Shown here piece by piece: positions 9,852 through 19,121 of a stretch of DNA of 25,792 nt. The notes under the pieces are model-generated. The model worked only from the letters and a program-made list of their open reading frames with translations. It was not told the DNA's origin and did not search any database. Origin of the DNA: a virus; the IMG/VR virus record IMGVR_UViG_3300017755_000090, positions 1 through 25,792 of that record. One strand, given 5' to 3'. Both the position numbers and the translations under genes were made by a program. Positions within the stretch are counted from its first letter, which is position 1; each line of letters begins with the position of its first letter.

Positions 9852-10205
9852 TTATTTAAAGTCTCTATAGTACATTACACCTTCCCACATCTTCTTGTTA
9901 CCAAGACGTTCCATGTTGGGAAAAAAATTACTACCCTTGTCACACATTATAAAAGCTCGGTGTATACCGTTTGCAGCATACTCATCTTCAAGTTTCTTGA
10001 TGGCCCTAACACTGTCCAACGCCTTTGCCCTCTTGCTGTCCATCCACCACCAAACAAGTGGTGCAGCACCAACACTGGCAGAGCCAATGATGTCGCCATC
10101 CTTGCGGAAGATGTGAGTTGGCATAACCACATTGTGATCGTCAGCCAACATACGCTCTGACAAGTTAGGCAAAGATTGATGTGTTACGTGTTCTATTGTT
10201 ATCAT
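9852..10205 (-). CDS. GNAT-like small protein (T7 gp13-type position)
   Basis: A 117-residue protein beginning MITIEHVTHQ. A short N-terminal segment is followed by THIFRKDGDIIGSASVG (residues about 30-46), a strand-turn-strand as in the central sheet of GCN5-type acetyltransferases. Then come WWWMDSKRAKALDSVRAIKKLEDEY (helix) and GIHRAFIMCDKGSNFFPNMERLG, like the late strand and helix before the GNAT 'neighbour similar' end. I do not see a clear Q/RxxGxG/A acetyl-CoA loop, so it may not be catalytic. T7 gp13 is a small GNAT-like virion protein next to internal core genes, and this gene sits just before the large internal proteins. The start is an ATGA overlap with the fibre gene, preceded by GAAGG. 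Assignment is by fold pattern and position. Confidence 0.55.
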   Translation of the reverse strand: MITIEHVTHQSLPNLSERMLADDHNVVMPTHIFRKDGDIIGSASVGAAPLVWWWMDSKRAKALDSVRAIKKLEDEYAANGIHRAFIMCDKGSNFFPNMERLGNKKMWEGVMYYRDFK

Positions 10206-13200
10206 CCTTCTAATGTTTGCACTCTAGCTTCCAAAGCCTCTATCTTATCTACAGCCTCTTGCAATGCTGCGGTCAAAAGCGGTACTAGTTTAGATTGGTC
10301 AATGCCCTGATAGTCAGGAACACTGCGAGTATCCATCACCGCTTCAGTAACTAGTACACTTTCTGTCCACTCTTCTACAGCAGGAGTAAGCTCATTGCCA
10401 TCTTCATCATAAGTGGCTTCCGCTGCTGGGTGAACAACATCTTCATAGACCGCGGGAGACACCTCATACTCCTCCTCCTTCATGCCGTCCTTAGTTCCTG
10501 TTATTGCTTCTGGAACAATATCTGAAACTTCGTGAGCAAAGAACCCATCTACCGTTTTATCTGGATCTACTTTAAAGTTAAAGCGATATGGACTAAGCTG
10601 CTTCAGCCGATCAATTCCGTCTATAAGGTTTGTTTCGTTTTCTTTAAGCCTGTAATCGGATGAGGTGTTAAAAGCTGTTGCTGAAGTTGACGTTGTTATG
10701 CTACCAACCACTGAAGAGCCATTGTAAAAAATAGCATGAGTCGCAGAGCCAGATGCTCGTGCAGAGTAAATAATACCGTTTGAAGCAACACCAAAACTAT
10801 CCGCTTGGGCAAGAGCAGTGCCACCCACCAACAAACTGCCTGATGCGTCTATACGCATCGCTTCTGTGCCTGAGCGTGTTGTAGTATTTGCCGCTGTATT
10901 AAATGTTATTGCAGTAGCGGCGTTGTATGTCGAGGCAGCACCGCCTATATCTATTCTATTTAATGATGAGTTTGCAAAGTATTGTAATACCTGAAAACCT
11001 TCTGCCTCTGTTCCAGAGTCATATTGACGGGCTAATAAATGTCCTTCTTTATTAGTATCGTCAGTATTGTTGTTGGCGAATGTCACGTTCCCCGCTACGT
11101 CTAAAGCTGTACTTGGAGCCGCCGTGCCAATGCCAACGCCCGTAGCGTTAATACGCAGCTTCTCGTTACTAGATCCATCACTGTTTACATGGAAGCGAAT
11201 GTCTGTACCATTGTCTTCCGTAAACAACCTCAATGATCCATCTGAAAGAATTTGTGCAGGATTAGATGAATTTGTCTGCCTAAAGAAAATGCTCTTGGTT
11301 GTGTTTGATGAACCATCCAATTTAATACCAACCCCATCTGCGTTAACTATTAAGCGATTTAGTGACTCATCCCATTGCATATAAGAACCACTAGTTGCCC
11401 CGAAGAACTTAACATCATGACCAGTATCATCTACACCTACGGTAAGCGTTGAGTCTATTTGAACAGCACCATTTATTGTAGTAGCACCGTTAAAATAGGC
11501 AGTCCCCTGGTTATAAAAATCAAGTGAAGGATGTACCGCCGATATACCTACAGCAAACTTACCCGTAACATTTCCTGAAGGCATTCCTACATGACCACCA
11601 ACTGCCAGCGTAGATGCCATGTCAACAGCTCCATCAATGTCTACAACATCAAGGTTAGTAGTGCCATCAACGTCTAAATCGCCGTTAAAATCAACATTAC
11701 CAGCAACCGCCAGTGTTGTTGCCATGTCTACCGCCCCATCAATATCTACAACATCTAAATTAGTAGTTCCATCAACATCTATAGCTCCAGAAATATCTAA
11801 GCTTCCACCCGTCAACTTACCAACCTGCAAGTCAGCATAGCTGTTGATTGTGACATTTCCTGCGGTCGTTCCGTCTTCTGTATTACAGGCTATTGCGGCA
11901 AACTCGTCAGCAGACTCGTCCCATATAAATCCCTTGTTTGCAGTGTTACTAGCAGAGCCGTTGCCTCGCGTAACAATAAACCCTTCATCAAATGCCGAGC
12001 CCGTGTACCCCTCACCAAATTTTACTAAGGGATCAGTAACGGTAAGGTTAGTTGTGTTTACTGTTGTGGTTGTACCGTTAACAGTAAGGTTGCCCGTAAT
12101 AGTTACATTGTCACCAAAAGTAGCTTCAGATGTAGAATGTCCTATTGCAATGGCTATACCAGAAGTTTCTGTAGCAAGCTTTAACTCTCCTGTAGAATTA
12201 GTAATGTATGAATTACTACCATCATGGTAGACTTGCATATCAGAACCTGTACCAAATTTAAACTTGTCACTGTCTGGTACAAGCAGATCACCGCTTGAAT
12301 CTACTGTTACGGCTTTTGATGCCTCGGATGTACCTAGTGTAGTAATATCTAAGTAGTTTAATTCAGCAGCAGTAGAAGTAACCGTTGTCCCTCCTATGGA
12401 AAGAGCGTCTGTTTCAAGAGTGCCATCAAAGTCTCCATCTACAGCATCAATGTTGCCCTTAAAAATTGTAGCACTAACCGTTCCTGTACTTGGATTATAT
12501 GCAAAATTGCCATCCATTTCCAAGCCAACATTGCCTGTGCTTGAGGTTGCCCCCTCTACAAAAGTAATTAGGTTTTCTTCGTTAGTGCTTTCGTTGTCAG
12601 TTACTAAAACATGAGCAGAGTTTGTTGCGTTTGTAACTGTTGTTCCTGCAATAACTGTAGCTAAAGCTGTACCATTAACCGTTATTGCATCGGCCTCTAG
12701 AGTTCCATCTACATCTACATCTCCAGATATGTCTAGTGAACCAAATGAACCAACTCCAGTAGTGGTTATTGCAGAAGATCCATTATCAATGGCTCCAAAA
12801 CCAGAAGATATTGATCCTGCTCCAAGTGTGCCAACAGAGGTAATCTGAGTCTGGGAAGCATCTACAGAAAGAACACTGCTAGAAGCTGATAATCCTGTGC
12901 CAGCAAAAAGAGTAGCGATGTCTGCTATTGCTTCTTTTTTTGTTGTGCTATCCGTAGCATCGACAAAAGGAATAAAGTCTCCATCAGCTATAGCAGCATT
13001 ACTAATTTCATTAAAATCTAAAGCTATTGTAAGAGTTTGGCTGCTTGCTGAGGTATCTAATCCAGCAGATCCAGCAATGGTAAATGTTTGACCATCTAGG
13101 TCTACAGAACCAGTTCCACTATCTCCAGCAAAGTCTAAGTCTTCAGCAGTTAGTTGAGTGTCAACATACGCCTTAATGCTCTGCTGAGTAGCAAGAGACG

Positions 13201-13603
13201 TGGCAGAGTTGGAAGACATATTGTCCTCATCCAATATTGCCACTTCCGCAGGAGCAGCAGACCCACCAGAAACATTACCAAGAACCTTGTAGTCTGCTAA
13301 GTTTTCTATCTTAGCCTTTGTGACATTGCTGTCTGCAATAAGAGAGGTGGTAATGTTGGCGGCAGCAATCTTAGCTGTAGTTACGTTACTACCTGCAATT
13401 TTAGCAGTGGTCACTGCACTTGTTGCAAGCTTGCCAGCACTAATACCAAGATCCTTTACAATTATTTTCCCACTAGAAAGCTGGGTCGTGGAGTCATCAA
13501 CTGCTCCAGATGCAAATGTTGCACTATCTACAAGTGCATTAAGATTGGTAGACGTTACTTGATCGCCATCTGAATATGTAGTACCTTTGCTTAAAATAGC
13601 CAT
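10202..13603 (-). CDS. Tail fibre/spike with C-terminal S74 intramolecular chaperone
   Basis: A 1133-residue receptor-binding fibre. Residues 54-103 are five 10-residue repeats (VTTAKIAGSN type). A long beta-repeat shaft follows, rich in Asp, Gly and Thr (LDISGDVDVDGTL, VDGTTNLDVVDIDGAVDM), including a near-perfect 35-residue duplication. The C-terminal 152 residues form a Peptidase_S74 chaperone: Ser982 in TSSDYRLKEN is the likely self-cleavage serine with its Lys dyad partner at 987, followed by DGFFAHEVSDIVPEA and the final coiled coil (KLVPLLTAALQEAVDKIEAL). In this family the chaperone trimerises the fibre and then cuts itself off. An acidic insert of about 50 residues (EEEYEVSPAV to MDTRSV) splits the chaperone. 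The start is a TAATG overlap with the nozzle-like gene. Confidence 0.9.
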   Translation of the reverse strand: MAILSKGTTYSDGDQVTSTNLNALVDSATFASGAVDDSTTQLSSGKIIVKDLGISAGKLATSAVTTAKIAGSNVTTAKIAAANITTSLIADSNVTKAKIENLADYKVLGNVSGGSAAPAEVAILDEDNMSSNSATSLATQQSIKAYVDTQLTAEDLDFAGDSGTGSVDLDGQTFTIAGSAGLDTSASSQTLTIALDFNEISNAAIADGDFIPFVDATDSTTKKEAIADIATLFAGTGLSASSSVLSVDASQTQITSVGTLGAGSISSGFGAIDNGSSAITTTGVGSFGSLDISGDVDVDGTLEADAITVNGTALATVIAGTTVTNATNSAHVLVTDNESTNEENLITFVEGATSSTGNVGLEMDGNFAYNPSTGTVSATIFKGNIDAVDGDFDGTLETDALSIGGTTVTSTAAELNYLDITTLGTSEASKAVTVDSSGDLLVPDSDKFKFGTGSDMQVYHDGSNSYITNSTGELKLATETSGIAIAIGHSTSEATFGDNVTITGNLTVNGTTTTVNTTNLTVTDPLVKFGEGYTGSAFDEGFIVTRGNGSASNTANKGFIWDESADEFAAIACNTEDGTTAGNVTINSYADLQVGKLTGGSLDISGAIDVDGTTNLDVVDIDGAVDMATTLAVAGNVDFNGDLDVDGTTNLDVVDIDGAVDMASTLAVGGHVGMPSGNVTGKFAVGISAVHPSLDFYNQGTAYFNGATTINGAVQIDSTLTVGVDDTGHDVKFFGATSGSYMQWDESLNRLIVNADGVGIKLDGSSNTTKSIFFRQTNSSNPAQILSDGSLRLFTEDNGTDIRFHVNSDGSSNEKLRINATGVGIGTAAPSTALDVAGNVTFANNNTDDTNKEGHLLARQYDSGTEAEGFQVLQYFANSSLNRIDIGGAASTYNAATAITFNTAANTTTRSGTEAMRIDASGSLLVGGTALAQADSFGVASNGIIYSARASGSATHAIFYNGSSVVGSITTSTSATAFNTSSDYRLKENETNLIDGIDRLKQLSPYRFNFKVDPDKTVDGFFAHEVSDIVPEAITGTKDGMKEEEYEVSPAVYEDVVHPAAEATYDEDGNELTPAVEEWTESVLVTEAVMDTRSVPDYQGIDQSKLVPLLTAALQEAVDKIEALEARVQTLEG
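11600..11809 (-). repeat. 105-bp tandem duplication in the fibre shaft
   Basis: Two adjacent 105-bp (35-residue) units encode VDGTTNLDVVDIDGAVDMA followed by (T/S)TLAV. For example GCCATGTC recurs at 11616 and 11721. The copies differ by scattered, mostly third-position changes while the protein is nearly identical, so the duplication is old and held by selection or gene conversion. Confidence 0.85.
13295..13444 (-). repeat. Decapeptide repeats near the fibre N-terminus
   Basis: Five units of 10 residues (30 bp) cover fibre residues 54-103: ISAGKLATSA, VTTAKIAGSN, VTTAKIAAAN, ITTSLIADSN and VTKAKIENLA. The alternating Thr/Lys/Ile/Ala pattern suggests a short beta-helical or coiled neck between the virion-binding N-terminus and the shaft. 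Confidence 0.7.
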
Positions 13604-15783
13604 TATTCTGCTTTTTGTATGCTTCTAAAGGTTATAGCTCCTGCTACCTTCAATGCTCTTAGTCTGGGTCTCCCCTTAGTTGTTGTTAATTTAAATTGTA
13701 ATCCGTAGGCTCGTTTGTTGCCAAATCTTCCCCGAAGAGACACATCTTCATCAATAGCAAGCTCTTCACCGTTTATGTTAGCAACTGTTCCAAGATCTAT
13801 AATAGCATCAATGTTCTCTGTTATTGCTTCCAAATTTGCATCAGAAACATTGTTTTCAGAAGATTGAAGATGCAGTTCAAAGTTATTCCATTTCTTTCTG
13901 TCAATAGATCCAATGGTAAACATCCTGCTTGTTGCTGATGCTGCAACCAAAATAGATTCTGTTGAAGCCCCAATAGCACCAACATACAGATCTATGTCAT
14001 CTGCTCTGGATTCATATTTGTGAACTCCACCATTTCGGTTGATAGCATAAACACCTCTCTGAACACCTGATCCACCAGTCAATAAATATGTATACTCCCA
14101 GTCTGAATCATTTATGGAATCCAACGACTCCCATTGTTTGTTAAGAAAGTTGTAAACCAAAAGAGCGTTGTTTGTAGTGGAGTCATCCAAAGGAACAGCA
14201 ATGTAATACCTGTTATCAAAGTAAGCAGAAACTGCCTTATCTGCATAATCCTTGTTGATTCTTGAGATGGTTCCTTGAATGGAAGAAGACAATGGTACGT
14301 CTTGCCCTCTCAAGTTGTAAAGATCAACGAAGTCTAGTGCGTACACTCCATTGTCGGATAGGAACATTAGCTTGTTTCCTATCTGCTGTATGCTGTTTCT
14401 GGCCGAACACCCTATATCGCTTGTGATAACTTGTGATACACTGCTTCCCAGATCTAGGCTATTCTTTACTGTGTGAATGCTATTGCGGTTGAATACTACC
14501 AATTGGTCATCAGAGAAAGAATGAAAACCTACAATAAAATCTGCTTCTCCGGCATTAAATCTAAACTGACCGTAAATTCTGTCATACGTGTTTTGATCTA
14601 GTATATCCGAAAACAAAGCCTCATCCAAAATATTTCTATTGGTAATTGTAGCAGATCCAGAAGACCCGGTAATATCAAACTGATATGGAACAACCAACCT
14701 ACGTTGATGTGGTACACCAAACTCTGGAGCCGGCATATGGCTAAATCCTAGACCAATAGATGTTTTCTTTTCAACGGTAGCACTTTTGTTTGTAGCATCA
14801 GCTTTGTCCGTAACAAAAGTAAAAGTTGTTGAGTTTGTTATAGATCTAACCCGAACGGTGTCACCAACAGAATAACCAGAACTTCCTGCGGTAGTCACTG
14901 TAAGTTCATCTCCAACCAATAAAGAACTGGTGCTAGAAACTGTAGCTGTTGCTATGCCTGATGCAAAATCGAGATCAGTAATTGCTAGAGGTGTAGGCTG
15001 AGTGTACGCTCCGTTAGAAACTAAAGCAAAGGTAGTGGTACTAATGTCTCCATCCCACTGTAAAGCTATCTGCCCCTTGCGGAATATAAACAACTTGTTA
15101 AATGCCTGAACCACATTGCTTCCCCTTGGAACCGTTTCTCCAGAAGGATATGTAAGAGTAACTGTTGTTGCCCCACTATCTAAAGTTTTTACCAATACTG
15201 TCTTGTTGGTTCCGACAACAGCAATGTAAGATGTTGCATCGTTATTAGGATCTGAAAATTCACAAGATGCTTCTATAAAGTTTGAAGCACTATCTAGCAG
15301 TCTCATTCCCTTAACCACCATAGTTCCACCCGGCGTTTCAGCTAAATCAGTAACTGTGTAAGTTATTGTATCTGCATCTACAACTGTAGCAATAAAATTA
15401 CCGTTTGGATCAACACTACCAGAAAACGTCAATCCACTAATATTTACCCCAGTGTTAGTTGTAATGTTGTGAGCTGAATTAAAATTAACTTGGATTGTTG
15501 AATCAGTCCTAGAAAATGAAGCAACTCCACCACCTATATTGGTTGAGTCATACAACTTAAATGGAAGAGCAAGAACCGCAGCAGAAAATGGAGCAGAGAA
15601 TATATCCATGCCTTTTCTTGGTTGCCACTCACCGTTCAAATCCATTCGGCCATTTTCAGAAACAGACAACACTCCAGAAGGAAGCTGGTCGGGTCTAAGC
15701 TTATTGTTAAAGCCAGAAAAGCCTTGGTCTAGGTCTTCTACAACCCGATCATCGGCCTGCCCATATGTATCATATCTAGCCAT
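13603..15783 (-). CDS. Tail nozzle-like / tail tubular protein B-like protein
   Basis: A 726-residue, beta-rich protein with no membrane segment. The N-terminus contains DQGFSGFNNKLRPDQLPSG, NGRMDLNGEWQPRKG, a signature I associate with podovirus nozzle or stopper proteins (the T7 gp12 role). Later come many short hydrophobic strands and turns (LVVFNRNSIHTVKN, LMFLSDNGVYALDF, YYIAVPLDDST), like blades of a beta-propeller. The gene lies between the small basic proteins and the fibre, and its stop overlaps the fibre start (TAATG). Expected role: distal tail tube joining the adaptor ring to the fibres and closing the DNA channel. Exact family not certain; a different tail-surface protein is the main alternative. 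Confidence 0.7.
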   Translation of the reverse strand: MARYDTYGQADDRVVEDLDQGFSGFNNKLRPDQLPSGVLSVSENGRMDLNGEWQPRKGMDIFSAPFSAAVLALPFKLYDSTNIGGGVASFSRTDSTIQVNFNSAHNITTNTGVNISGLTFSGSVDPNGNFIATVVDADTITYTVTDLAETPGGTMVVKGMRLLDSASNFIEASCEFSDPNNDATSYIAVVGTNKTVLVKTLDSGATTVTLTYPSGETVPRGSNVVQAFNKLFIFRKGQIALQWDGDISTTTFALVSNGAYTQPTPLAITDLDFASGIATATVSSTSSLLVGDELTVTTAGSSGYSVGDTVRVRSITNSTTFTFVTDKADATNKSATVEKKTSIGLGFSHMPAPEFGVPHQRRLVVPYQFDITGSSGSATITNRNILDEALFSDILDQNTYDRIYGQFRFNAGEADFIVGFHSFSDDQLVVFNRNSIHTVKNSLDLGSSVSQVITSDIGCSARNSIQQIGNKLMFLSDNGVYALDFVDLYNLRGQDVPLSSSIQGTISRINKDYADKAVSAYFDNRYYIAVPLDDSTTNNALLVYNFLNKQWESLDSINDSDWEYTYLLTGGSGVQRGVYAINRNGGVHKYESRADDIDLYVGAIGASTESILVAASATSRMFTIGSIDRKKWNNFELHLQSSENNVSDANLEAITENIDAIIDLGTVANINGEELAIDEDVSLRGRFGNKRAYGLQFKLTTTKGRPRLRALKVAGAITFRSIQKAE

Positions 15784-16032
15784 TTAACAATTCCAAGCTC
15801 TCCTGCTCCAGTAGTTTGCAGACAGTTTATTACTCTTACCCTTTATCCCACCTGACCTAGCACAGTAACTTTTCTTACGTGCCGGGTTATTCTTTTTGAT
15901 GCTCATGTTAGCATCACCAAAGCGTACAATTTTTTCCTTACCACCCTGACAAGCTTTCACGACAAACTTCTTCCCCCCAGATACTTCTCTGCGGGGCTTG
16001 TTGCACTTCATCTTGGATTTATCTATTGCCAC
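15784..16032 (-). CDS. Small basic Cys-containing protein (82 aa)
   Basis: An 82-residue protein with a GTG start at 16032 preceded by AAGG at good spacing, overlapping the upstream gene by 14 bases. It is strongly basic. Visible blocks: KMKCNKPRRE, KKFVVKACQGGKEKIVRFGD, MSIKKNNPARKKSYCARSGG and NKLSANYWSRRAW, ending in Cys. Four cysteines (10, 28, 57 and 82) could bind a metal or form disulfides. The pattern 'VVKAC..GKEKI.RFGD' and 'KLSA.YWS..AW' recurs, from memory, in small proteins of aquatic viruses without a known function. It is the last of four consecutive small basic genes and its stop touches the nozzle-like gene's start. Confidence 0.8.
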   Translation of the reverse strand: MAIDKSKMKCNKPRREVSGGKKFVVKACQGGKEKIVRFGDANMSIKKNNPARKKSYCARSGGIKGKSNKLSANYWSRRAWNC

Positions 16033-16267
16033 TTCTTACCTTTGCTTTTGGTGTGTTAGCTACAACCGTTTGCCCGGTTGCTCCTGCTCTTTTCTTTTTC
16101 TTTGCAGTGGCAGCTCTTTCAGCTTTAGTCAGGCTTATGGCTTTGCGTCTAGGTAAGCATCTGTCCGGCCTCTTCTTATTAGCAGAAGTGCCACACTTGC
16201 CCTTGATAGATCCATCTGTACCTATCCTTACCCAGTCTTCCTTTAGCCACTGTTTGAGTTGAGCCAC
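16019..16267 (-). CDS. Small basic Cys-containing protein (82 aa)
   Basis: An 82-residue, Lys/Arg/Ala-rich protein. Blocks in order: WLKEDWVRIGTDGSIKGKCG, then ANKKRPDRCLPRRKAISL, then KAERAATAKKKKR, and a C-terminal GQTVVANTPKAKVRSGNR. Cys25 and Cys37 are the only cysteines. The order W.R....G.I.GKCG..RCLP..KA.SL is one I associate with short proteins of marine phages and large algal viruses; function unknown. The GTG start overlaps the previous stop by one base (TAGTG) and has AGGA five bases before it. A DNA-binding or condensing virion role would fit the charge but is inference. Confidence 0.8.
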   Translation of the reverse strand: MAQLKQWLKEDWVRIGTDGSIKGKCGTSANKKRPDRCLPRRKAISLTKAERAATAKKKKRAGATGQTVVANTPKAKVRSGNR

Positions 16268-16440
16268 TAGCGTCCTTTCCTTTTGCCTCCTTTAGACTTC
16301 TTAGCGTAGTTAGGATCTTTGCAATACTTAGATGCAGCCAAGTTAGCGTAAGCAGAAGGATATGTATCAAACGTCCTTCTGGCCCAAGCCTTGCCCTCCG
16401 GGCAAATTTTGCCTCCGCTCTTAGCTTTTTTCTTTGGCAT
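16267..16440 (-). CDS. Small basic peptide with CPxGK and YPSAYA motifs (57 aa)
   Basis: A 57-residue open frame between the 23-residue gene and the 82-residue gene. It begins MPKKKAKSGG, then has KICPEGKAWA (11-20), TYPSAYANLAASKYC (26-40) and a Lys/Gly/Arg tail. Two cysteines (13 and 40) flank the conserved-looking helix. The 'PSAYA' core recalls a small motif in proteins of algal viruses and marine phages. Its stop TAG overlaps the next gene's GTG, and it starts two bases after the previous stop. Shared K.CP.GK..A with the preceding 23-residue peptide suggests the two are related. Confidence 0.75.
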   Translation of the reverse strand: MPKKKAKSGGKICPEGKAWARRTFDTYPSAYANLAASKYCKDPNYAKKSKGGKRKGR

Positions 16441-16442
16441 GA

Positions 16443-16514
16443 CTAATAACTTTTTCTTTTACCCTTAGCCTTGCCTTTGCCCGTTGGGCATGGTTTGCGT
16501 GTTCCATACTTCAT
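16443..16514 (-). CDS. Tiny Lys-rich peptide with CPxGK motif (23 aa)
   Basis: A 23-residue frame, MKYGTRKPCPTGKGKAKGKR followed by three more residues. Its ATG lies one base after the stop of the spanin-like gene and it ends two bases before the 57-residue gene, so it fills the gap exactly. Nine of 23 residues are Lys or Arg. Residues 7-16 (KPCPTGKGKA) match residues 11-20 of the next protein (KICPEGKAWA) at six of ten places. It may be a real microprotein or a leader that keeps ribosomes coupled. Length alone cannot prove coding; position and the shared motif support it. Confidence 0.5.
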   Translation of the reverse strand: MKYGTRKPCPTGKGKAKGKRKSY

Positions 16515-16515
16515 A

Positions 16516-16866
16516 TTATTCCTTTACGTCTAGGTAGTTCTTGTCGCGTAGTTCAAAATTAACACTACCATAGGTTTTAAGTTTTTCTACAGTGCTGCCA
16601 ATTTCCTCCATGTTTTTTTCTAAATACTGAAGTCTAAGATTTTGTTCTGCGTCATCAGGCAAAGCTCCCAGTTCTCCTCTAGGCCATTTAATTCGGAACT
16701 CTGTGTTCATTCCAATTTCAACGTCCCTAATGTTCTGAGCGTTCTCTAAGCTAGCTATACGGCTCGTCATATTAACGTACCCTGTCACACTAACTACTGT
16801 AAACCCAATCAACGCAATCAAGTTGCGAAGAGGTATCGTTACTGCCGTCTTGTCGCTTATATCCAT
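16516..16866 (-). CDS. Membrane-anchored coiled-coil protein, spanin-like
   Basis: A 116-residue protein with one N-terminal membrane segment (about residues 10-31, IPLRNLIALIGFTVVSVTGYV) after a short charged cytoplasmic tail. The rest would be periplasmic: a heptad-like helix (MTSRIASLENAQNIRD), a loop with WPRGELGALPDD, and a second helix (LRLQYLEKNMEEIGSTVEKL). This layout matches i-spanins (Rz type), which link inner and outer membranes in the last lysis step. No overlapping lipoprotein (Rz1-like) frame was recognised. It directly follows the 136-residue holin candidate with a TAATG overlap, supporting a lysis role. A structural membrane-bound protein is the alternative. Confidence 0.5.
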   Translation of the reverse strand: MDISDKTAVTIPLRNLIALIGFTVVSVTGYVNMTSRIASLENAQNIRDVEIGMNTEFRIKWPRGELGALPDDAEQNLRLQYLEKNMEEIGSTVEKLKTYGSVNFELRDKNYLDVKE

Positions 16867-17276
16867 TACTTAACTTGAGAACTGCCAAAGTAAAATCCTA
16901 GTAAGGCTAGCATTCCTTGCCTTACTTCGGGCAATAACACAAAGCCCTCTAGGTGTTTCCATTTGTCTGCTCCGATTCCTAAAAATTTAAATATACCCAG
17001 TTTGTTTGCCTCGATGGTTACTGGTATGTCAAAGAAGGCCATGACGAAGGGAGCAAATACCACCGAGAACAATATGCACATAGCGATGAGCTTTCTAACC
17101 CATGCTCCGTTTTCATCAGATCTATTAGCTGCTTTGTCTGCTGAATTATCCGCTACCTCCTGCTTCTGAATCATGGACTTAATGGCATTGGCTTGGATGT
17201 TCATTTGAGCCGAGATTAGTTTCATTACAAATCCCGTGACCCCACCTCCAAGCATTGCCACTAGTTCACCACTCAT
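16866..17276 (-). CDS. Holin, GTA_holin_3TM-like
   Basis: A 136-residue membrane protein. It has a weakly hydrophobic N-terminus (LVAMLGGGVTGFVMKLIS), a charged helical middle (KQEVADNSADKAANRSDENG), a strong membrane segment at about 61-83 (KLIAMCILFSVVFAPFVMAF), and a third hydrophobic piece near the C-terminus (GMLALLGFYFGSSQ). The closing GFYFGS is typical of the three-segment holin family first seen in gene transfer agents. Holins form membrane lesions that time lysis and let endolysin out. The ATG overlaps the preceding 54-residue membrane peptide (ATGA), and the following gene is spanin-like, giving a compact lysis cassette. Confidence 0.72.
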   Translation of the reverse strand: MSGELVAMLGGGVTGFVMKLISAQMNIQANAIKSMIQKQEVADNSADKAANRSDENGAWVRKLIAMCILFSVVFAPFVMAFFDIPVTIEANKLGIFKFLGIGADKWKHLEGFVLLPEVRQGMLALLGFYFGSSQVK

Positions 17277-18676: not shown

Positions 18677-18834
18677 TTCTTTTTTAGGAACAAACAACTT
18701 TTAAAAAATTTATGAAGGCTTTTTGCTACAACAACAAACGATTGTTCTTCGTCAACAGATACCCCCAGGGGGTAATATCTACTGCACGATAACTTAACAT
18801 TGCAGCTCACTCCTTGGCATTTAATAATATTCAT
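18673..18834 (-). CDS. Cys-rich small protein (53 aa)
   Basis: A 53-residue frame that joins two neighbours by ATGA overlaps at both ends (ATG 18834 inside the upstream TGA, stop at 18673-18675 inside the next ATG). The N-terminal half has Cys6, Cys11 and Cys17 in CQGVSCNVKLSCSRY, spaced C-x4-C-x5-C before RYY; a fourth, Cys48, sits in a hydrophobic basic end (FFKSCLFLKKK). This looks like a small zinc-binding or redox peptide. I recall similar C-x4-C-x5-C-x-RY peptides in aquatic phage head genes, function unknown. Double coupling is strong evidence that it is expressed. Confidence 0.75.
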   Translation of the reverse strand: MNIIKCQGVSCNVKLSCSRYYPLGVSVDEEQSFVVVAKSLHKFFKSCLFLKKK

Positions 18835-19121
18835 GGTCTACCTAGTCTTTTTGTAGTTGGCCCGGGTTTTCTGCGTTTTTTGAAGTTAACAGTCAAAGGA
18901 GGAAGCTCTAAAGGCTTTCTGTTTACTGTTCCTTCGGTGCGATCTACAAGACCATCTTTTCTAGCTTTTCTAGCTGTTTTGCGATCAGCTTTGCGAGCAG
19001 CTTTGCGATTAGCTCTAATCTGTTTTTTTACAACAGATCTGTTTCCACTTAGCTGCTTACCAGTTGTAGGATCGTTAGTAACAAGATAAGGTTCCAATGT
19101 AACTGTGGGCATATTTGGCAT
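18831..19121 (-). CDS. Very basic small protein, first gene after the internal terminator
   Basis: A 96-residue protein starting MPNMPTVTLEPYLVTNDPTT; Met4 is another possible start. The middle is an alternating Lys/Arg/Ala helix (KKQIRANRKAARKADRKTAR, continuing KARKDG), and the C-terminus is Pro/Lys/Arg-rich (FKKRRKPGPTTKRLGRP). No cysteines. It is expected to bind DNA or RNA or an acidic partner such as the scaffold, but no family is recognised. It follows the intrinsic terminator by 22 bases without a clear own promoter, so read-through transcripts would supply it. Confidence 0.75.
   Translation of the reverse strand: MPNMPTVTLEPYLVTNDPTTGKQLSGNRSVVKKQIRANRKAARKADRKTARKARKDGLVDRTEGTVNRKPLELPPLTVNFKKRRKPGPTTKRLGRP

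Follow-up and report, generated by a model that had tools for sequence, protein, structure and literature searches.

Tlr6F proteins, catalogued as DUF5754, have no known function; they have been described as conserved in almost every polinton-like virus, in several virophages and many giant viruses (Megavirales), and in some phages (PMC4642659). A domain of this kind is also contained within XkdF-type prohead proteases, including ICP1 ORF125. The small, basic internal proteins IPI, IPII and IPIII of phage T4 are packaged in the head; in IPI*, a fold of 76 residues, helices flank two beta sheets, and the T4 internal proteins contact DNA phosphates through lysines (PMC3012670). A capsid-targeting sequence directs proteins into the T4 prohead core (PMC9026906). 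The genes ipII and ipIII adjoin the lysozyme gene e. Finally, T4-GC119 of the cyanophages S-SM1 and S-SM2 is one large polypeptide, encoded between the terminase genes gp16 and gp17, and is probably a virion protein.

Here, a cluster of four small genes was analysed in a stretch of viral DNA of 25,792 nucleotides (positions 1 to 25,792 of IMG/VR record IMGVR_UViG_3300017755_000090; referred to as the window), designated P4, P3, P2 and P1 in order of transcription. P1 resembles Tlr6F/DUF5754 proteins in its core motif, and searches by profile and by predicted fold paired it with phage members and with a marseillevirus protein, whereas it scores below the Pfam gathering score and its cysteine set is unlike that of most relatives. 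Compared with the XkdF-type proteases, P1 is free-standing, with no protease in its gene. T4-GC119 harbours the same P2 and P3 domains together with DUF6321, the alternative of P1, whereas the window encodes three separate small proteins in which Tlr6F replaces DUF6321. P1-P4 share small size and basic character with the T4 internal proteins, but no sequence relation was detected, P1-P4 lack a targeting sequence and they are far more conserved; as judged from their sequences, they are not members of the T4 internal protein family.

The four-gene cluster and its genomic setting

The preliminary description of this DNA had reported four consecutive tiny, basic, Cys-containing genes between lysis and tail genes. 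The coordinates, joints, charges and cysteines of the four ORFs, all of which are located on the minus strand, were verified in the window sequence (Table 1). P4 and P3 are separated by a 2-base gap, P3 and P2 overlap by 1 base (TAGTG) and P2 and P1 by 14 bases, while the stop codon of P1 is immediately followed by the ATG (15783) that starts the next gene. The direct flanking genes encode proteins with net charges of -23 to +8, and most genes flanking the cluster were shown to specify near-neutral or acidic products.

Table 1. Coordinates and properties of the P1-P4 genes and of adjacent genes in the window
Feature	Coordinates	Strand	Length (aa)	Start	Net charge	Cys	Description
P4	16443..16514	-	23	ATG	+9	1	K/R-rich peptide, motif YGkRKxCPxGK
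P3	16267..16440	-	57	ATG	+14	2	phrog_27331 'YPSAYAN' protein
P2	16019..16267	-	82	GTG	+18	2	phrog_23735 / DUF5872-like
P1	15784..16032	-	82	GTG	+19	4	Tlr6F/DUF5754 superfamily
Next downstream gene	13603..15783	-					Head-closure (Hc3-like) / virion structural protein; phrog_3287 6.6e-15, phrog_578 Hc3 2.4e-8
Upstream gene	16516..16866	-					Small membrane-anchored protein, possible holin/spanin-type lysis gene; phrog_20984 2.5e-16, weak phrog_1296 holin E 0.046
Upstream gene	16866..17276	-					Membrane protein, lysis-region gene; phrog_38283 1.4e-42, no function assigned

Full-length relatives were recovered for P1 (205), P2 (165), P3 (140) and P4 (13) from contigs fetched from IMG/VR. Median dN/dS values (Nei-Gojobori, own script) were 0.074 for P1, 0.108 for P2, 0.032 for P3 and, from 12 short comparisons, 0.197 for P4, as compared with 0.095 and 0.071 for two neighbouring genes. 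P1-P4 were thus confirmed to be real genes under purifying selection. Every non-redundant relative of P1-P3 carries a net charge of at least +10.

The window has the appearance of a late region of a marine tailed phage. It encodes a terminase, a portal protein and an SU10-type major capsid protein (PF17236, 4.6e-49; acidic, net -17), along with the P1-P4 cluster, a head-closure protein and tail fibres, and almost all of its genes lie on the minus strand. No gene for a prohead protease was recognised in it. The gene next downstream of P1, whose counterpart in the phage C75C1 record is annotated as head closure Hc3, shows that P1-P4 lie in a late structural context. Its best profile matches are to head-closure and virion structural proteins, so that the tail label of the preliminary description did not hold, while the lysis label given to the upstream side is only weakly supported, by a holin match of the adjacent gene (dN/dS of 0.024). 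A homologue of the second upstream gene adjoins the P2 homologue in C75C1.

Two further proteins of the window were observed. Beside the capsid genes, positions 18831-19121 (minus strand) specify a small basic protein of 96 aa (net +19, without Cys), a possible further virion DNA-contact protein. Positions 10202-13603 (minus strand) encode a tail-fibre-like protein of 1133 aa, the C-terminal region of which, by eye only, resembles an S74-type intramolecular chaperone (YRLKENE...FFAHEVSDIVPEAI).

Family membership and predicted structures

P1 was shown to match the profiles phrog_7595 (2.6e-14) and phrog_9979 (1.6e-7). Against PF19058 (DUF5754/Tlr6F) it scored 21.0 bits (E 3.4e-4), below the gathering score of 27.4, and this profile was matched (E <= 0.01) by only 8 of the 62 aligned P1 relatives. 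P1 contains the core common to Tlr6F (NKP...VxxK...vxFGD...AR...YWs..xW), and its core motifs and fold, as assessed by phrog_7595, alignments and BFVD, are those of Tlr6F/DUF5754; P1 is a member of this superfamily. The match to DUF6321 (PF19846; 14.8 bits, gathering score 28.5) was confined to the RRKSxxAR segment.

The AlphaFold2 model of P1 (pLDDT 85.7, pTM 0.71) consists of a three-stranded sheet followed by two helices, a compact predicted fold that carries conserved aromatic and Arg residues. Matches to this model in BFVD included an XkdF protein, a ChaB protein, ICP1 ORF125 and a Tunisvirus (marseillevirus) protein; the last, a comparison between predicted viral structures, gave a probability of 1.00 and a TM score of 0.54, but an E value of 0.03. 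No PDB chain resembling P1 or P2 was identified by sequence or structure search. AP2 and arm-type integrase DNA-binding domains were also considered for P1 and rejected, being low-ranking matches with a probability below 0.1.

The preliminary description had further proposed zinc knuckles. For P1, neither a zinc knuckle nor a zinc ribbon is supported, since its four-Cys set is not conserved: its cysteines are present in 14-16 of the 62 relatives, a different HxC...C set occurs in 44 of the 62, and ICP1-type and some pelagiphage members have none. In P2, only C25 and C37 are conserved, each being kept in 45 of 46 relatives. Two cysteines are too few for a complete metal site in one chain, and could form a disulfide or an inter-subunit metal site.

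P2 matches phrog_23735 (4.1e-22). While P2 itself scored 15.6 bits against PF19197 (DUF5872; gathering score 27.5), 23 of the 46 aligned P2 relatives matched this profile (E <= 0.01; best 6.9e-17), placing the family within DUF5872, of which P2 is a relative; its conserved motifs are W-x(4)-W and CG...PxCxP. The P2 model (pLDDT 75) is weaker than that of P1, and its best viral matches include many DUF6321/GC119-type proteins of T4-like cyanophages, one of which is named 'Virion protein'. P3 belongs to phrog_27331 (1.2e-23, residues 10-56 of 57), and 7 of its 39 relatives are devoid of Cys. P4, the motif of which is kept in approximately 20 loci, is a lineage-specific peptide: no family match was obtained with Pfam and PHROG profiles, and tblastn against phage records returned nothing. 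No NCBIfam match was obtained for P1-P4, and papers bearing on these DUF names contain passing mentions only. The earlier remark that no function is known therefore applies to every family involved, though the genes are not novelties but conserved members of virus-wide families.

As a separate observation, a Tlr6F gene that lacks annotation was located in the roseophage SIO1 genome, with gp22 on one side and the phoH region on the other (L005:4974-5237; NC_002519 24080-24301).

A recurring module and its fused forms

P2 was found directly downstream of P3, on the same strand, in 66 of the 67 usable P3-anchored loci, and P3 upstream of P2 in all 70 usable P2-anchored loci. Loci holding both P2 and P3 also contained Tlr6F or DUF6321, never both, in 69 of 73 (P2-anchored) and 68 of 73 (P3-anchored) cases, about 94% overall. 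Across all 235 loci with P2 and P3, counts that, like those above, are drawn from related marine phages and do not represent independent events, 76 carried Tlr6F, 150 DUF6321, nine neither and none both, with P2, P3 and Tlr6F or DUF6321 all on one strand. Conserved gene order and low dN/dS, which the preliminary description had named as support for its reading, were thus both found. DUF6321 and Tlr6F share an RRKSxxAR...W segment and each scores in the other's profile, so that on sequence grounds Tlr6F (here P1) and DUF6321 look like alternative versions of one component.

In certain genomes the three parts are joined. A single 380-aa ORF on a phage-like contig binned with a Chitinophagaceae MAG (L512) was shown to contain P2-like (E 7e-8), Tlr6F (3.5e-26) and P3-like (4e-12) domains, and the T4-GC119 proteins SSM1_115 (S-SM1) and SSM2_109 (S-SM2) combine P2-like, P3-like (VWPSAYAS) and DUF6321 domains in one chain. 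The tiny P1-P3 genes are thus the split form of proteins that are single molecules elsewhere, and these fusions constitute the strongest evidence that P1-P3 act together.

Among named phages, the module was located in HTVC106P (P1 as gp30, P3 as gp26 and P2 as gp25) and CRP-2 (gp71, gp70 and gp69, respectively), as well as in C75C1, HTVC023P, P-SCSP2 and DSL-LC04. Tlr6F is among the most widely shared virus proteins and has long lacked an assigned function; through the phage module it becomes linked with the virus head and with two further orphan families, and small phages that can be cultured are identified as direct test systems for what it does. A search of open-licence literature returned neither this module nor the three-way fusion nor the convergent links to the head; while the families are already known, the module and the head link appear to be new.

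Additional domains were noted in such proteins. Some P2/P3 homologues carry extra Gly-rich C-terminal tails (ARGCGAVMNGRRKRTKGS or SRGGGAAVRGMGFKGVF; L116:4572-4955, L219:4146-4532 and L170:4995-5378, the last being HTVC023P gp51). These tails give the impression of a recurring C-terminal tag, possibly a signal for packaging or docking. A tiny basic domain, 'LYANIHAKR...GSGEKMRKPG', located beside or fused with DUF6321 or Tlr6F (L173:5234-5395, L175:5570-5722, L177:4794-5219 and L505), seems to be another part of the module repertoire. DUF5824 (RRGAGAFSSSHRP...W.MARVN) was seen together with Tlr6F within single proteins, by Pfam match in L500, L505 and L514 and by eye in L501 and L504; L501, although assigned to the bin of a Lokiarchaeota MAG, is probably viral.

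Links to the virus head

We lean modestly towards the view that P1, P2, P3 and probably P4 are late, basic, head-internal proteins that are packaged with DNA in the manner of the T4 internal proteins. Their entry into the head would take place while the procapsid is being assembled, leaving them positioned against the packaged DNA. P1-P3 would act as one unit, given their persistent association, whether as adjacent genes or as domains within a single polypeptide, would probably neutralise or organise capsid DNA, and may be ejected together with the DNA when a cell is infected, just as happens with T4 internal proteins, with any role after injection being equally conjectural. Of the candidates listed in the preliminary description, that of small virion proteins, possibly DNA-condensing, is the best supported, on account of the fusions, the placement next to genes for capsid, portal, terminase and head closure, the probable detection of GC119 in S-SM1 virions and the positive charge; delivery to the host, also listed there, is possible.

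This detection is deduced from GenBank remarks. S-SM1 virions were analysed by MS, with gp21 and GC190 among the newly detected proteins (PMC3037559). The S-SM2 record carries the remark 'similar to Synechococcus phage S-SM1 protein' on the virion proteins gp3, 6, 13, 14, 15, 18-21, 23, GC190 and VrlC; the same remark is absent from the replication genes, gp16, gp17 and gp22, and present on GC119. Since gp21 and GC190, newly detected in S-SM1, both carry it, the remark was read as marking the S-SM1 virion list, indicating that T4-GC119 was probably detected in S-SM1 virions. A further Tlr6F protein (L514) is fused to a GC190-type cytidylyltransferase that is 43% identical to S-SM2 GC190, and a cytidylyltransferase is among the S-SZBM1 virion proteins. 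S-SZBM1_190 was considered as a GC119 virion protein and rejected, as it contains no module domain; the DUF6321 gene of that phage is _192, which was not listed by MS.

Tlr6F is also fused to the XkdF prohead protease (PF14550, above the gathering score) in ICP1, Vibrio phage 1.101.O and L331, the domain order in ICP1 being opposite to that in Vibrio phage 1.101.O; in L331, a Tlr6F, XkdF and ChaB fusion is encoded two genes before a major head protein gene. Free-standing copies are located between scaffold and capsid genes in HTVC041P and P-SCSP2, by terminase genes in P-GSP1 and CRP-2, and by capsid and cement genes in DSL-LC04. The protease fusion, the positions between scaffold and capsid or beside head closure, and the compact predicted P1 fold with its conserved aromatic and Arg residues would also suit shell or portal/neck parts (cement, portal plug or scaffold partner) whose binding partners are capsid proteins and not DNA, their positive charge docking on an acidic capsid protein such as that of the window (net -17). 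We consider this unlikely: T7-like and T4-like phages, whose capsid genes are unrelated, harbour the module or components of it, and Tlr6F extends to eukaryote viruses, a distribution that suits a DNA partner better than a single capsid partner, and searches among solved structures returned no capsid or cement protein.

Several module copies adjoin lysis genes, including those near peptidase M15 in HTVC106P and HTVC023P, an arrangement that could alternatively be explained by co-expression with lysis. P1-P3 might accordingly be late cytoplasmic nucleic-acid-binding or lysis-associated proteins that remain outside the particle, in line with their location in the window after membrane lysis-type genes and with the absence of the DUF6321 protein SSZBM1_192 from the 30 reported S-SZBM1 virion proteins. 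Small K/R-rich proteins are, however, easily missed in virion proteomics. Proximity to lysis genes is not general, as copies elsewhere neighbour scaffold and capsid, terminase, or capsid and cement genes, while the protease and GC190 fusions and the GC119 remark point to the virion, making a non-virion role improbable.

In T4-like contigs, IPIII-like capsid-targeting starts (MKTYQEFIAE) were identified in 11 of 86 DUF6321 ORFs, as compared with 23 of 1828 other ORFs. P1-P4 lack such a sequence, with scores of -6, 12, -6 and -3 against an N-terminus of the MKTYQEFIAE type. That P1-P3 are head-packaged effectors injected with the DNA to act on the host, through anti-restriction or take-over like T4 IPI or Alt, appears slightly more improbable still: the targeting-like starts of some DUF6321 proteins and the T4 internal proteins as closest working analogue, IPI* inhibiting a restriction enzyme (PMC3012670), would agree with it, but an arms-race effector should diverge, whereas P1-P3 exhibit dN/dS values of 0.03-0.11 and belong to families found across phages that infect SAR11, roseobacters and cyanobacteria, IP proteins being poorly conserved between relatives (PMC9026906). 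Such strong conservation of P1-P3 argues for a general structural task over that of a host-specific effector.

A broader and more tentative proposal, which we regard as possible rather than probable, is that a single, widespread virion nucleoprotein system draws interchangeably on Tlr6F, DUF6321, DUF5872 and the YPSAYAN domain. Small phages would encode these components as separate tiny genes and larger phages as fusions, and the task of the system would be to package or protect DNA inside capsids whose folds are unrelated, in bacterial and eukaryote viruses alike; its reach across the bacteria-eukaryote divide derives from the Tlr6F proteins shared with polinton-like and giant viruses. If the head-internal reading of the phage module is right, a role would be assigned to many tiny 'hypothetical' genes of abundant ocean phages, and long-unassigned cyanophage virion proteins such as T4-GC119 would be explained.

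Other proteins encoded near T4-GC119 in T4-like cyanophages display capsid-targeting-like starts (MKTLKQFLKE, MLSFKAYLAE and MKSFKSFLSE; L172:2868-3296, L171:2273-2863 and L418:38312-38629), including members of a widespread 'SESVNISGDFNGNLY' family, and these may, to judge from their N-termini, represent further head-internal proteins.
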